Both the position numbers and the translations under genes were made by a program. From an uncultured Sunxiuqinia sp. (GTDB lineage Bacteria; Bacteroidota; Bacteroidia; Bacteroidales; Prolixibacteraceae), in assembly GCF_963678245.1 (NCBI RefSeq), contig NZ_OY782770.1:930001-994000 (forward strand): 64,000 bases of DNA, given 5' to 3'. The notes under the pieces were generated by a model. It worked only from the letters and a program-made list of their open reading frames with translations. It was not told where the DNA came from and did no database searches. The first letter of the stretch is position 1, and each line of letters starts with the position of its first letter. Positions 3,025 through 38,508 of the stretch are shown here, piece after piece.

Positions 3025-5451
3025 TTGCTAACAAAGAGACTGGTTCGTATTTTTACCAAAAATCAATCTCAGGTGGTCAGAATAATTTTGCTTGTTTGCT
3101 CGCTCTTTATTTCAACTTTCCTTTATGCACAGCGGCTTTTAGTTACTGATGCAAAAACAGGAAACCCGATCGAAGGTGTAATCGTTTTTTCTGAAACCAG
3201 AAGCACACAAACCAACAAACAGGGATTGGTAGATATCAGGCAGTTTCATCCGGACGAAGCGATTCATTTCAAACACTCTTCGTACCTCAATTACAAAGCC
3301 AATAAACAAACACTTTGGTCGCTCAACTACAAGGTTGAATTGCTAATTGACCCGGTAAAGTTGGACGAAATTGTTGTTTCCGCCAATCGAAGAAGTCAGT
3401 CAAAACTGGAAGTTCCCAACCAGATAGTCAGTATCAATCAAGAAGAAATAGCTTTGGCGAACCCACAAACAACAGCAGACTTATTGAATACAAAAGGCGG
3501 CGTTTTTATTCAAAAAAGCCAGATGGGAGGCGGCAGTCCAATGATTCGAGGTTTTTCAGCAAACAGGTTATTGTTGGTCATTGATGGCGTCAGGATGAAC
3601 AATGCCATTTACCGCAATGGCAATTTGCACAATATTATCTCGTTGGATGCAGCTTCAATTCAGCACACCGAAGTTATTTTTGGCCCCGGTTCCGTCATTT
3701 ATGGCAGCGACGCTTTGGGCGGTGTTCTTCACTTTCAAACCTTGTCGCCCAAATTGTCAACCAACGAACGATACAAACAGTCGCGCCATGCCTATGTACG
3801 ATACGCCAGTGCAAACTTCGAAAAAACAATTCATGCTGATTTTAACCTCGGTAATGAAAAGCTGGCGACAGTAGCCAGTTTTACTGTTACCGACTTTGAC
3901 GACCTTATGATGGGGAAACATGGGCCGGACTCCTATTTAAGGCCTGAATATGTTGAAAATAATCAAATCGTTGAAAATCCGGACTGGCGCAAACAGGTTC
4001 GAACTGGATACAGTCAGTTTAACTACCTGCAAAAAATCAGATACCGCCCCAACGAACGGTGGAATTTGGTTTATGCCTTTCATTGGTCAACAACTTCCAA
4101 TATTCCGCGCTACGACCGCTTGATTCAATATAGCGACGAGAAACTTAAATACGCCAAGTGGTATTATGGTCCTCAAAAGTGGAATTTACACTCACTTAAA
4201 ATCCAAAAGAAAACTCAAAATTTATTTTTCGATCAAACAAGCTTTTTAGCAGGTTGGCAGAACTTTACCGAAAGCCGTCACAGTCGAAAATTAGGCCATG
4301 AAGAGCTAACCAGCCGAACAGAGAAGTTGAACATACTTAGCTTAAATTTTGATCTCGACAAAAAAATTGACCAAAATAACTCTCTGTATTATGGGTTCGA
4401 GGGAAACTTTAATTGGCTGAATTCAAAAGGAATCGTTAAAAACGTGAACACCACTCAAACGCAGGAAACTTCATCTCGCTATCCCGACAGCTCAACCACT
4501 TCAAGTTTGGCAGCCTATGCCAGCTACAAACTTTCACTACACCAAAAAGTCACCTTGAATCTGGGAGGTCGTTTTTCCATCAATCAACTCCAAGGCGAAT
4601 TCGACCGGCAATTCTTTGATTTCCCTACAGATGAGTTTGACAATACCCACTCGTCATTTACCGGAAATATCGGATTAGTGTATCACCCTACTGAATATTG
4701 GCAACTTAACGCCAACGCATCCAGTGGTTTTCGCGCCCCCAACATTGATGATATTGCCAAAGTATTTGACTCCTCTCCGGGAAATGTAGTAGTTCCCAAC
4801 CCGAATTTAAATCCGGAATATGCCCGGAACGTCGAAATCGGCATTCTACGAAGCGTGAAAAATCTAGCCAAACTGGAGCTTAACTTCTTTTACACTTACC
4901 TCAACGATGCGATGGTTCGCCGTCCTTTTTCGCTGAATGGTCAGGATTCTGTTTTGTACGAAGGAGAAATGAGCCGTGTAGAAGCACTCGTAAATTCAGA
5001 CTATGCACACATTTATGGTGGAGACCTCAGTATGGAGTGGATACTTTCATCGAAAATACGCAGCCGGAATTCCATTACGGCTACATTTGGAGAGGACAGC
5101 GAGGGAATGCCTGTTCGACATGTAGCTCCAGTATTTGGCAGTTCTCATCTGTTGTACAATGATCACAATAAAACCATCGACCTGTATCTAAATTTCAATG
5201 CTAAACTTTCGAATTCGAAATTAGCTCCAAGCGAACGGGAGAAAACCGATCTCTACGCTCAAGACTCCAATGGTAATCCCTATTCGCCCGGCTGGATCAC
5301 GCTGAACCTAAACTCATCATTTCAATTAACAAAAAAATACAGCCTGAATTTAGGGATTGAAAGTATTCTCGATAAGCGGTATCGTCCATATTCTTCAGGA
5401 ATTGTCGCCGCCGGACGCAATGTTATCCTTTCGTTTAAAGCCATCATTTAG
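3025..5451 (+). CDS. TonB-dependent outer-membrane receptor
   Basis: An 808-residue TonB-dependent receptor. A signal peptide (about residues 18-36, ending LYAQ) is followed by a carboxypeptidase-regulatory-like beta domain (VTDAKTGNPIEGV), then a plug domain with MGGGSPMIRGF and NRLLLVIDGVRMN (about 168-192) and VIYGSDALGGV, and a long beta-barrel ending in an aromatic-containing strand. The only upstream start in frame is TTG at 3025, three bases after the previous stop; no ATG precedes the plug. The plug resembles vitamin B12/haem/siderophore-type receptors more than SusC, since it lacks an STN domain and a SusD partner. Ligand unknown. Confidence 0.87.
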   Translation: MLTKRLVRIFTKNQSQVVRIILLVCSLFISTFLYAQRLLVTDAKTGNPIEGVIVFSETRSTQTNKQGLVDIRQFHPDEAIHFKHSSYLNYKANKQTLWSLNYKVELLIDPVKLDEIVVSANRRSQSKLEVPNQIVSINQEEIALANPQTTADLLNTKGGVFIQKSQMGGGSPMIRGFSANRLLLVIDGVRMNNAIYRNGNLHNIISLDAASIQHTEVIFGPGSVIYGSDALGGVLHFQTLSPKLSTNERYKQSRHAYVRYASANFEKTIHADFNLGNEKLATVASFTVTDFDDLMMGKHGPDSYLRPEYVENNQIVENPDWRKQVRTGYSQFNYLQKIRYRPNERWNLVYAFHWSTTSNIPRYDRLIQYSDEKLKYAKWYYGPQKWNLHSLKIQKKTQNLFFDQTSFLAGWQNFTESRHSRKLGHEELTSRTEKLNILSLNFDLDKKIDQNNSLYYGFEGNFNWLNSKGIVKNVNTTQTQETSSRYPDSSTTSSLAAYASYKLSLHQKVTLNLGGRFSINQLQGEFDRQFFDFPTDEFDNTHSSFTGNIGLVYHPTEYWQLNANASSGFRAPNIDDIAKVFDSSPGNVVVPNPNLNPEYARNVEIGILRSVKNLAKLELNFFYTYLNDAMVRRPFSLNGQDSVLYEGEMSRVEALVNSDYAHIYGGDLSMEWILSSKIRSRNSITATFGEDSEGMPVRHVAPVFGSSHLLYNDHNKTIDLYLNFNAKLSNSKLAPSEREKTDLYAQDSNGNPYSPGWITLNLNSSFQLTKKYSLNLGIESILDKRYRPYSSGIVAAGRNVILSFKAII

Positions 5452-15403: not shown

Positions 15404-15475
15404 TGACCCGTGGTGTAATTGGCAACACGTCTGGTTTTGGTCCAGAAGAGTCCAGGTTCGAGCCCTGGCGGGTCA
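15404..15475 (+). tRNA. tRNA-Gln (anticodon UUG)
   Basis: A 72-base cloverleaf can be drawn by hand: acceptor stem TGACCCG/CGGGTCA, D stem GTGT/ACAC with GG in the loop, anticodon stem TCTGG/CCAGA with loop TTTTGGT giving anticodon UUG, a 5-base variable loop, and T stem CCAGG/CCTGG with loop TTCGAGC. All stems are perfect. CCA is not encoded. A terminator follows at once, so it is a single-gene unit. Two short open frames that cross it are artefacts. Confidence 0.97.
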
Positions 15476-15478
15476 ACA

Positions 15479-36125: not shown

Positions 36126-36488
36126 CTAATTGATTGAAATTGTCACTTTATTTGATTCGTCGATCCCACTAGACCAAAAGGTTGCATGAAATTTACGAAT
36201 ATTAAAACTTGAATATATGGGATGAGTTTCATAATACACGTTATCAACATAATGAACCCTTACTGTCTTTCTAGTTTCCCCTATGTGAGTATTTGAAAAC
36301 GACCCGCTATAGCCGTCTGACTCCAAAGAACCATTTACACCCCCCACCCAATCAATTGACTGTTCAATAATATCATAAGTAGCCTCATTATTTCTCCACT
36401 TCTTAGGTATCCCACGATATTTCTCTTGATTGAGAACTAATGTAAGAGAGTAACCCGTTTTATAATTCCTAAGTTTACATTTTCTTAT
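36126..36488 (-). pseudogene. 3' fragment of lipoprotein gene interrupted by IS110 element
   Basis: An open frame of 120 codons ending in VTISIN, with no start of its own (a GTG at 36345-36347 exists but lies mid-domain). It is Asn/Tyr/Ser rich and beta-like, with EQSIDWVGGVNGS and HYVDNVYYETHPIYSSF. The frame stays open up to 36488 and stops at TAA only inside the IS. If the IS is removed at the shared CTTT, this frame joins exactly in phase to the lipoprotein N-terminal fragment at 37730-38443, giving a 358-residue protein. The family may be DUF4848-like (weak recall only). Confidence 0.82.
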
Positions 36489-36504
36489 CTTTTATCAATA
36501 AACA

Positions 36505-36661
36505 GAAAGAACGAAAGAGTGGAGTAAGGTTGAGTTACAATTTAGGCCATCAGAGCCTGTCAACAAAGATTATCACCACTCTTTTACTACTGCAATACGA
36601 TCAGTTCTCTGGGCTAAAAGCCTGTTTTTAGGTTGCTATATTACCGTAGATTCGTTCTTTC
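36505..36661 (+). ncRNA. Candidate bridge RNA of the IS110 element
   Basis: The region folds as nested elements. An outer perfect 11-bp stem pairs 36505-36515 with 36651-36661. Inside, a perfect 9-bp stem pairs 36514-36522 with 36576-36584, enclosing a loop with an AGGC/GCCT inner hairpin. The first loop's 3' arm contains AACAAAGAT (36562-36570), complementary to ATCTTTGTT across the reconstructed target core. The second loop contains TCAGTTCT (36601-36608), identical to the IS right end including the CT core, and TAAAAG (36615-36620), complementary to CTTTTA at the left end. These match the target and donor guides known for IS110 bridge RNAs. I found no left-target guide. RNA ends are estimates. 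Confidence 0.72.
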
Positions 36662-36669
36662 ATAATCTA

Positions 36670-37647
36670 ATGGTTATGTATAAAAGTAAACATTTTATTG
36701 GAGTTGACATCTCAAAAGAGACATTCGATGTATGGGATTTATCAACAGGGCATCATTGTTACAGTAATGATTCAAAGGGTTTTCGCTTGTTTTACAAATT
36801 AATGAAGTCCAACACTCATTGCGTGATGGAATCAACCGGAAGTTATTACCAACAGCTTGCCGTTTTCCTCTACCAAAAAGGGATTGAAGTTTCTGTGGTA
36901 AATCCTTTAACCATTAAACGTTTTATTCAGATGAAGCTGCAGCAGAATAAAACCGATAAGAGTGATGCTCGAATGATTGCATTGTTTGCACAGGAACAGC
37001 CACTTAAACAATGGATTCCGGAACCTGAATACATCGAAAAGAGTAAGCAGCTTCAGAAAGTTGTAGTGTTATATTTAAAGCAGAATACAGCCTTAAAGAA
37101 CCATATCCAGGGACTGGAAAGCAGGGGTGTTAAAACGGGCAGGATTATCACTTCATTGAAACGTCAGCTACGTCATGTTAAGGATGAGATTGTCCTTTTG
37201 GAACAGGAGATTGAAGTGCTTATAAAACAATACGATGGTGATTTATTGAGCAATATAACTTCTATTCCCGGAGTGGGAGAAAAGACTGCGGTTTACCTGA
37301 TAATTATGAGTAATGGCTTTCGGAACTTCGATAACTACCGTCAGGTATCCGCATTCTTTGGACTGGCTCCTACGGAACATACTTCAGGTACAAGTATAAA
37401 CGGGCAGTCCCGAATCAGTAAACGGGGCAATCCGAATATGCGCAACCATTTGTTTATGTGCAGTTTTACAGCCAGTAAATGCAATCCTCAGTGCCATGCA
37501 TTGTATCAACGAATTGTAAACAAAGGAAAGTCAAAAAAGCTAGCTTTAATTGCTGTATGCAACAAATTGGTCAAACAAGCTTTTGCCATTGCCAAATCAG
37601 GGATACCATACGATCCGGCCTATCGAAGTACCATCATCGGTCAATAA
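36670..37647 (+). CDS. IS110-family transposase (DEDD recombinase)
   Basis: A 325-residue RNA-guided recombinase. N-terminal RuvC-like domain: FIGVDISKETFDVWD (Asp13), VMESTGSYY (Glu54), and NKTDKSDARMIALFA (Asp96 and Asp99) complete the DEDD set. The C-terminal Tnp_20 domain has ITSIPGVGEKTAVYLI (about 197-212) and GLAPTEHTSGTSINGQSR followed by SKRGNPNMRNHLF, which contains the candidate catalytic serine. Length is normal and there is no frameshift, so the element may still be active. ATG at 36670 or 36676 are both possible starts. Confidence 0.95.
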   Translation: MVMYKSKHFIGVDISKETFDVWDLSTGHHCYSNDSKGFRLFYKLMKSNTHCVMESTGSYYQQLAVFLYQKGIEVSVVNPLTIKRFIQMKLQQNKTDKSDARMIALFAQEQPLKQWIPEPEYIEKSKQLQKVVVLYLKQNTALKNHIQGLESRGVKTGRIITSLKRQLRHVKDEIVLLEQEIEVLIKQYDGDLLSNITSIPGVGEKTAVYLIIMSNGFRNFDNYRQVSAFFGLAPTEHTSGTSINGQSRISKRGNPNMRNHLFMCSFTASKCNPQCHALYQRIVNKGKSKKLALIAVCNKLVKQAFAIAKSGIPYDPAYRSTIIGQ

Positions 37648-37723
37648 TTTTTCTTTGGGAACAGCCCCCAAAAAAACAGGGTGTTTTAAATCAAAAATTA
37701 TGGGTTTTTATTTGTTTTTAAGC

Positions 37724-38443
37724 TCAGTTCTTTGTTAGTCCTTTAAAAGGATCAAAATTCACAATCGTACTAAAAACAACTTCTTCCAGAGAATAATTCA
37801 ATCTTCTTTTTCCTACAGTTTGAGTGCCACCCTCAACAATAGCTGTCGACTTGAGTCTTTTGTTTCTACTAAACGACTCAAAAACAATAACATTATCATC
37901 ATCAACCTGAGCTGATTTCAATGAATTATCTTTAAATTTACTCAACTGTTCCTGGTCTCCATCAAGTATAATATATTCCTTTTCTCTGGAAAATTTATAA
38001 AGCGAATTTTCTATCTTGATAATTCCATCTTCATTTAATACGCTCGCCAGCCCAGTTGCATAAAATTTATAGCGAATATCTAGATCTTCACTAATTCTAA
38101 AAAAATCACTATATTTTTTAACAAAACTATTTTTTTCATCTTGAGTTTTAATATTATCAGCTAGGTCATTGGTTTCATTCCTGAAAGTCTCCGCAGACTT
38201 AAAATTGAGACTATTCTCCCATTCTTCCTTTTCGGTGTCTTCCATTTTTTCTATTTCCAATAGTATCCGATTAAAATCCTCAAGTGTTCTAAATACCAAA
38301 TATCCACTCTCCTCATACACTTCAGACTGTTCCTGAGTAAAGGCAACAGTTTCAGATTGCTCTACTGCGAGCTCGTCCTTCTGACAAGCACTAAAAATTG
38401 TTAACACGATTGCCACCATGGCAAAAAGATTAAACTTTTTCAT
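37724..38443 (-). pseudogene. 5' fragment of lipoprotein gene interrupted by IS110 element
   Basis: Begins at ATG 38441-38443 with a lipoprotein signal (VLTIFSAC, Cys about residue 20), preferred over an in-frame start 14 residues upstream. The protein then has acidic helices (EDFNRILLEIEKMEDTEKEE) and ends in FDPFKGLTKN, where the last codon and stop come from the IS right end. Removing the IS replaces TKN-stop with TKIRKCKL and continues into 36126-36488. The IS lies about two-thirds of the way along the gene, so the fragment could still be secreted but lacks its C-terminal 120 residues. Confidence 0.82.
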
Positions 38444-38508
38444 AATTTTACATTGTTTATGAGATGGGTAGCAGTAACTATCCATCCCGGTTAATAAACA
38501 TTTATTTC

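Follow-up and report, generated by a model that had tools for sequence, protein, structure and literature searches.

Introduction

The IS1111-attC elements, whose hosts are mainly Proteobacteria, are reportedly the subject of work by Tetu and Holmes (2008) and by Post and Hall (2009). According to passages of one paper, ISKpn4, ISPst6, and ISPa25, which belong to this type, are directed by a seekRNA to one end of the attC site of a gene cassette (PMC11187229). As that source has it, the RNA is encoded downstream of tnp, the elements have sub-terminal inverted repeats, and the order of the guides is reversed relative to the element described here. In IS621 and ISCro4, as excerpts of two papers describe them, a DEDD/Tnp recombinase is accompanied by an RNA from the long left end, with a target loop followed by a donor loop (PMC11208160, PMC11208158). 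The core of IS621 is CT, and other NT cores worked too (PMC11208158, in part). As for the attC sites themselves, Salinibacter is named as a complete integron in Bacteroidetes in a section of a 2022 paper (PMC9024848), and a section of another lists Bacteroidota among the integron-bearing phyla (PMC8618304).

We analysed a 64,000-nucleotide stretch of DNA from an uncultured Sunxiuqinia sp. (contig NZ_OY782770.1, positions 930,001 to 994,000), to which we refer as the window. It contains an element that shares with IS621 and ISCro4 a homologous recombinase, the location of the RNA, and the order of the loops. It differs from them in its core, which is TT rather than CT and is usually unequal between the two ends; in its right donor guide, which pairs from d10 onward and not with the core; and in its attC-like target. 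With the IS1111-attC elements it shares this kind of target, but it is of the IS110 type, its RNA lies upstream of the gene, and its host is a member of the Bacteroidota. We conclude that this is very probably an IS110-group insertion sequence guided by a bridge RNA from its left end, that its clade usually targets the outer arm of attC-like sites, and that the copy in the window sits at a near-match.

Boundaries and copies of the element

The element covers positions 36468 to 37730 of the forward strand (1263 bp, CCTAAG...TCAGTTC). It is preceded by the dinucleotide TT at 36466–36467, which resembles the empty sites TACAA-TT-TGTT, and followed by TT at 37731–37732 and then by the right target TGTT at 37733–37736. 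We place the ends here because other copies in the same genome share the 23 nt that precede position 36491 (CCTAAGTTTACATTTTCTTATCT), the DNA outside differs, and relatives start and end alike. All exact left ends listed for the genome agree in these 23 nt; one diverged left-end piece (L011) starts with CCCAAG. Most same-family relatives (~74% nucleotide identity) also begin with CCTAAG and end with TCAGTTC, with exceptions at two left ends (CCTAAA in L034 and CTTAAG in L040) and at one right end (L036). We considered the shared 23 nt as a possible conserved target and rejected this, given the different DNA outside them and the same starting letters in most relatives.

The initial annotation had started the element at 36491, with a CT core and with a donor guide TAAAAG (36615–36620) paired to CTTTTA. 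These letters do exist: a CT precedes 36491 and another ends at 37731. CT is also the core in four of the six exact empty attC-like sites of the host genome (TACAA-CT-TGTT; the other two are TACAA-TT-TGTT, and the reversed control pattern had no matches). This version is nevertheless almost certainly wrong. The sibling copies move the start 23 nt to the left, TT lies outside the element at both ends of the window copy, CTTTTA is inside the element, and 36615–36619 is the variable apical loop of a covarying hairpin, so that TAAAAG is not conserved.

Besides seven full-length copies (99.5–100% identity), the host genome has a truncated copy and three pieces of the left end, of which two are fragments and the third is diverged. 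These remnants are what favors the view that the element is a dead relic, with an inherited bridge RNA architecture that no longer works. But the seven full-length copies are nearly identical, lie in different places, and have frames without stops, which implies recent activity and makes a relic highly improbable.

Four of the seven copies (L002, L005, L006, and L007) have an attC-like arm directly at their left (TATACAA-TT or TTTACAA-AT), and L001 is in a gene. The other two, L003 and L004, are full copies that each follow a fragment of the left end. A simple insertion does not explain this arrangement; perhaps an insertion into an older copy was followed by homologous recombination. The fragment before L003 is itself in an attC-like site and the fragment before L004 is not. 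At these fragments (C6:159549-159760 and C4:2755-2859), AA rather than TT precedes CCTAAG. Six of the seven copies have TGTT as their right flank, and L005 does not. In L005, L036, and L101, the flank past the right end resembles a left end in its first letters (CCTAA or CTTAA), which would suit an insertion beside an older left-end remnant.

The window copy interrupts an ordinary gene on the reverse strand (36126–38485): if the flanks are rejoined with one TT kept, they form a single open stretch of 371 codons. Its target, TTTATAA-TT-TGTT, matches seven of the nine letters of the left guide and all six of the right guide, so we consider it a near-match, off-site insertion and the odd one out among relatives that are mostly in attC-like sites. 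For this reason the attC-like habitat is invisible from the window. The only RNA gene detected in the window is a tRNA-Gln (15404–15477); a scan of the window against Rfam at gathering thresholds gave the tRNA only.

An IS110-type recombinase

The recombinase gene (36670–37647, forward strand) encodes 325 amino acids with matches to the DEDD_Tnp_IS110 and Transposase_20 profiles and scores above the cut-offs of Pfam PF01548 and PF02371 and of NCBIfam NF033542. Residues 6–319 are homologous to IS621 (E = 4e-40) and ISCro4 (E = 1e-38) of solved structure. IS621 residues D11, E60, D102, D105, and S241 (in chain numbering, which is two above the paper's) align with D, E, D, D, and S, so the protein has both the DEDD RuvC domain and the Tnp domain with a catalytic serine that mark the IS110 group. 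The noncoding ends are 202 nt at the left and 83 nt at the right. The long noncoding end downstream of tnp that marks IS1111 elements is thus absent. As for sub-terminal inverted repeats, 67 inverted pairs of at least 9 nt were counted, and no pair among the 25 longest joined the two ends of the element.

A bridge RNA with two guide-bearing loops

The left end would encode a bridge RNA at approximately 36504–36661 on the forward strand, which we aligned to the RNAs of 37 relatives. Its closing stem joins 36505–36515 to 36651–36661. Within it lie a target-binding hairpin (36513–36585, with a stem at 36513–36522/36576–36585 and an inner stem at 36544–36547/36555–36558) and a donor-binding hairpin (36595–36641, with helices at 36595–36599/36637–36641, in which one of five pairs is broken in the window copy, and at 36610–36614/36620–36624). 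The two nested perfect stems that had been noticed at the outset, 36505–36515/36651–36661 (11 bp) and 36514–36522/36576–36584 (9 bp), are both present; since they overlap at 36514–36515, they can never be complete simultaneously. The predicted fold of a 162-nt stretch has an energy of -41.4 kcal/mol (z = -2.51; 3 of 200 shuffles were equally stable).

We followed 27 pairs across the 38 aligned RNAs: 97.9% of the cells are paired, and double changes occur in 12 of these pairs. Doubly changed cells number 122, as compared to 33 in shuffled alignments (none of 500 had as many) and 7–21 if the structure is slid. Two other measures stand out less: 18 of 500 shuffles had at least this many pairs with double changes, and in pair types these 38 RNAs were not above the shuffles (221 of 500). 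We left the outer stem out of these counts because the 3' ends are misaligned. The alignments therefore point to a long left noncoding end with a conserved structured RNA and two internal loops, as expected for the IS110 group, and we expect that it is transcribed and that the recombinase binds it, as in IS621.

The first loop carries a left target guide, GTTACAATT, on its 5' side (36534–36542; seven nucleotides plus two of core), although the initial annotation had not found one. On the 3' side is the right target guide AACAAA (36562–36567), which is complementary to TT-TGTT. The annotation had extended this guide to AACAAAGAT (36562–36570) and paired all of it with the rejoined target; AACAAA does fit, but the GA that follows (36568–36569) is complementary to TC, the last two bases of the element itself. 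In the scheme laid out in part of the IS621 paper (PMC11208158), this GA is at the position of the handshake guide, and its G, next to the core of the right guide, can pair with d7 in the way expected of such a guide. The corresponding letter fits d7 in 52 of 52 cases and the second letter fits d6 in 46 of 52. The d7 pair never varies and therefore proves nothing.

In the second loop, the left donor guide TCAGTTC+T (TCAGTTCT, 36601–36608) is identical to 37724–37731. This is the right end of the element, as had been noticed, with only the first base of the core rather than the whole of a CT core. The right donor guide is TTAGG (36628–36632), complementary to CCTAA at 36468–36472. In some relatives the left donor guide and the right end are both altered, and pairs of left end and right donor guide include CTTAA/TTAAG and CCTTAA/TTAAGG. 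The donor guides thus match the element's own two ends, except where the right donor guide faces the core: in the window copy it has UU where TT would require AA. The right end of the G753 type has one mismatch to its guide. The G753 locus L057 has extra GC-rich hairpins in both loops, which displace the usual letters of the right guide; this RNA may be inactive.

Overall, the kind of element that the initial annotation proposed, an IS110 element with a bridge RNA in a Bacteroidota and with separate target and donor loops, is upheld by the homology to IS621, by covarying stems, and by the covariation of guide and target in 38 genome-groups; its left boundary, CT core, right donor guide, and extent of the right target guide are not.

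Guides and targets change together

We searched 100 genomes of relatives, 140 of the family, 393 of the order, 395 of the phylum, and 299 of f124, a family in the same class as the host (that of genome G584). At the E-value limits used, 3, 5, 2, 5, and 37 genomes had a match, with the host genome itself counted in each of the first four. One member of the host's family, G012, has a copy equal to that of Prolixibacter denitrificans. A scan of named genome contigs gave only two loci, a single scan of viral contigs gave no relative, and plasmid records had relatives only below 60% identity.

Guides and flanks were read by fixed rules, which yielded 83 rows from 79 loci. We kept 79 rows after dropping two false anchors (the second rows of L052 and L056) and two fragment-adjacent rows (the second row of L003 and the sole row of L004). 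Loci that repeat the same place were skipped (e.g., L126–L128), some listed f124 matches were left out (e.g., three G922 copies, G925, and one G1144), and the guide of G868 was taken one base upstream of the position used elsewhere. Twelve loci were not parsed: seven have no readable left junction (L054, L067, L071, L098, L105, L118, and L119), and the other five (L120, L121, L122, L124, and L125) were read by eye. All five had seven of seven matching letters, with guides TTATACC, CTCAAAC (twice), and TATAGCC (twice).

The loop might have turned out to lack a match in the targets of relatives, and the stems to be unconserved, which the initial annotation had named as the outcomes that would speak against it. 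Instead, the stems covary, and the left guide matches the left flank at a mean of 6.16 of 7 letters (38 genome-groups, 58 distinct pairs), versus 4.68 (standard deviation 0.14) if targets are reassigned; none of 20,000 reassignments was as high, although this test does not fully remove shared ancestry, as the flanks compared come from hosts that are themselves related. (G753 forms two groups in this test, and the shuffles use one guide per group even though G1033 has two.) The 31 f124 groups without G868 give 6.38 versus 5.04 when shuffled (0 of 20,000 as high). Position 5 of the left guide is the most telling, with a match rate of 0.89 versus 0.37 for shuffles. On a tree of the recombinases (41 rows), the guide label needs 20 changes, as compared to a shuffled mean of 27.1.

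Some lineages track a change in the flank exactly, such as ATTAACC in G922 and TATAGCC in G1010, and G936 is off by one letter (GTCTACC/ATCTACC). L078 and L106, which are in one genome, have recombinases that are identical over the aligned stretch, and their guides are TATACAC and TATATAC next to flanks TTTACAC and TATATAC. Matches of the left guide are weak in G584 (3–4 of 7) and G012 (3 of 7).

The right guide matches TGTT and is clearly changed in just one lineage, G868. There, the target is GTC-AT-TTCGA or TCCGA; the left guide TATTGTC-AT fits at five of seven letters plus the core, and the right guide TCGAAAT fits TTCGA and the core in full. Overall, each half of the target is matched by its guide and changes along with it, with G868 as the sole case on the right side. 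The two G868 loci (L055 and L058) are relatives at 42–43% amino acid identity that have another target and have both target guides altered accordingly. This target may be REP-like (our label).

Most copies occupy attC-like sites

The right flank begins with TGTT in 70 of 76 rows. A complementary arm is present upstream in 54 of 80 rows (control, 15.8%), which leaves 26 of 80 without a good arm, and AAC is found ahead of the arm in 55 of 80 (control, 22.5%). These counts retain the fragment-adjacent rows of L003 and L004, for 81 rows in all, of which L087 was too short. Less in line with attC sites, the DNA fold of one empty site was unremarkable (z = -1.29). The flanks indicate that most relatives occupy attC-like sites of cassette arrays. 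Copies are often near a gene for an integron-integrase-like protein. We compared 14 genomes that have both: 24 of 55 element copies are within 80 kb of an integrase homologue, versus about 2.4 if copies were spread uniformly, an excess that clustering inflates. In the host genome this is true of one of seven copies.

Since most relatives lie in attC-like sites at one position, the element could instead read the folded attC hairpin, or some other feature of the cassette site that is recognized by a protein, with the likeness of guide and flank as a by-product. However, guide and flank change together, even between copies with identical recombinases; the window copy, which interrupts a gene, lacks both a good arm and the AAC box and still has a guide match; and the guides follow the flanks in G868, which has another target, and in G931, whose flanks may not be attC. 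We consider hairpin recognition to be very unlikely.

The two cores are usually unequal

The right core is TT in 72 of the 75 rows read, with one of the 72 (L036) resting on a right end that the script chose wrongly, and AT in the other three. The left core is variable: it differs from the right core at 60 of 69 sites with TGTT, and its second base is not T at 19. A CT core shared by donor and target, as in IS621, was therefore not found. The core positions of the guides also pair poorly: among 81 rows, the left guide has the first base of the left core in 52 and its second base in 33, and among 52 right guides, 13 have a core letter that fits the donor core, at either position.

In ten f124 genomes, TTATAYACNNTGTTR has 125 exact matches, mostly empty sites, among which the cores GG (57), GT (27), TT (12), and AT (8) occur; the reversed control pattern had 12 matches. 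The second core base is T at 41 of 55 occupied sites of the CTTAAG type versus 49 of these 125 empty-pattern matches (Fisher p = 2e-5). This excess may reflect a T preference at position 9 like that of IS621, or else a partial repair templated by the donor strand.

For IS621, part of the published account places the top-strand cut between positions 9 and 10, so that t9 joins d10 and d9 joins t10 (PMC11208158). This scheme predicts that the target core remains at the left and the donor core at the right. The unequal cores appear to agree with this prediction, and we infer that cleavage follows the core here as well.

Proposed mechanism and significance

We propose that the left end of the element is transcribed into the bridge RNA. 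The first loop would pair with both strands of the target, through a left guide of seven nucleotides plus the core and through a right guide for TGTT. The second loop would pair with the joined ends of the element, probably in a circular donor (TCAGTTC of the right end and CCTAA of the left end). The usual target of the clade would be the outer arm of attC-like cassette recombination sites, which in the window's host is TACAA-TT-TGTT. The right guide hardly varies because the GTT of the attC box is constant, and the left guide would be re-tuned to the attC arm of each host. At each insertion, the target core would remain on the left, and the right end would pass the donor core TT on to the next cycle. 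If this is true, then these genomes hold a natural, genome-scale record of a top-strand cut after the core.

On balance we favor, with some reserve, a broader reading: an IS110-type clade specialised on the little-described integron-like arrays of Bacteroidota, with one guide locked on the attC box, the other re-tuned, and normally unequal cores. Such a clade is apparently new, although bridge RNAs have been known since 2024. The search listings that we obtained from open-licence PMC literature mention no IS110-type element outside the IS1111 group in the attC sites of Bacteroidota; where papers treat both IS110 and attC, the attC-targeting elements in the passages at hand belong to the IS1111 group.

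Bridge recombinases are under development as genome-writing tools, and the members of this clade supply dozens of natural guide-target pairs that differ by small changes which can be read directly. Its apparent tolerance of unequal cores would relax the core rule for the choice of targets. The clade also points to cassette arrays in Bacteroidota and parallels the IS1111-attC elements.

An integron-like array in the host genome

One chromosomal array in the host genome has a tyrosine recombinase gene (C10:70129-71277; 4129-5280 in locus L129) and candidate attC-like sites at C10:73–85 kb; further candidate sites are at C6:141–170 kb. The tyrosine recombinase scores 225.8 bits against NF040815 (site-specific tyrosine recombinase/integron integrase; cut-off 220) and 204.6 bits against TIGR02249, which is below the cut-off of 265, and model positions 181–240 are unmatched. 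By these profile scores it is integron-integrase-like, not a certified IntI. Homologues were present in 14 of 15 genomes tested, with G012 as the exception.

Like integrons and CALIN, as portions of two papers describe them, the host genome appears to have cassettes between hairpin-like sites with outer AAC/GTT boxes, with an integron-integrase-like gene nearby (PMC9024848, PMC8618304); it differs in that the integrase is below the integron cut-off and lacks the model stretch 181–240. One cassette between two attC-like sites starts with TTGGCAT and ends with ATGCCAAC, and its complementary outer boxes are perfect. Integron cassettes have such boundaries. A simple pattern applied to three 20-kb stretches gave four box pairs that agree at 3.75 of 5 letters, versus 2.33 for cross pairs (some of which span missed sites). 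Among the genes of the array, two match anti-phage families: a bSEFIR-like protein (L129 6567-7193) and a SIR2-pAgo fusion (L129 12911-16075).
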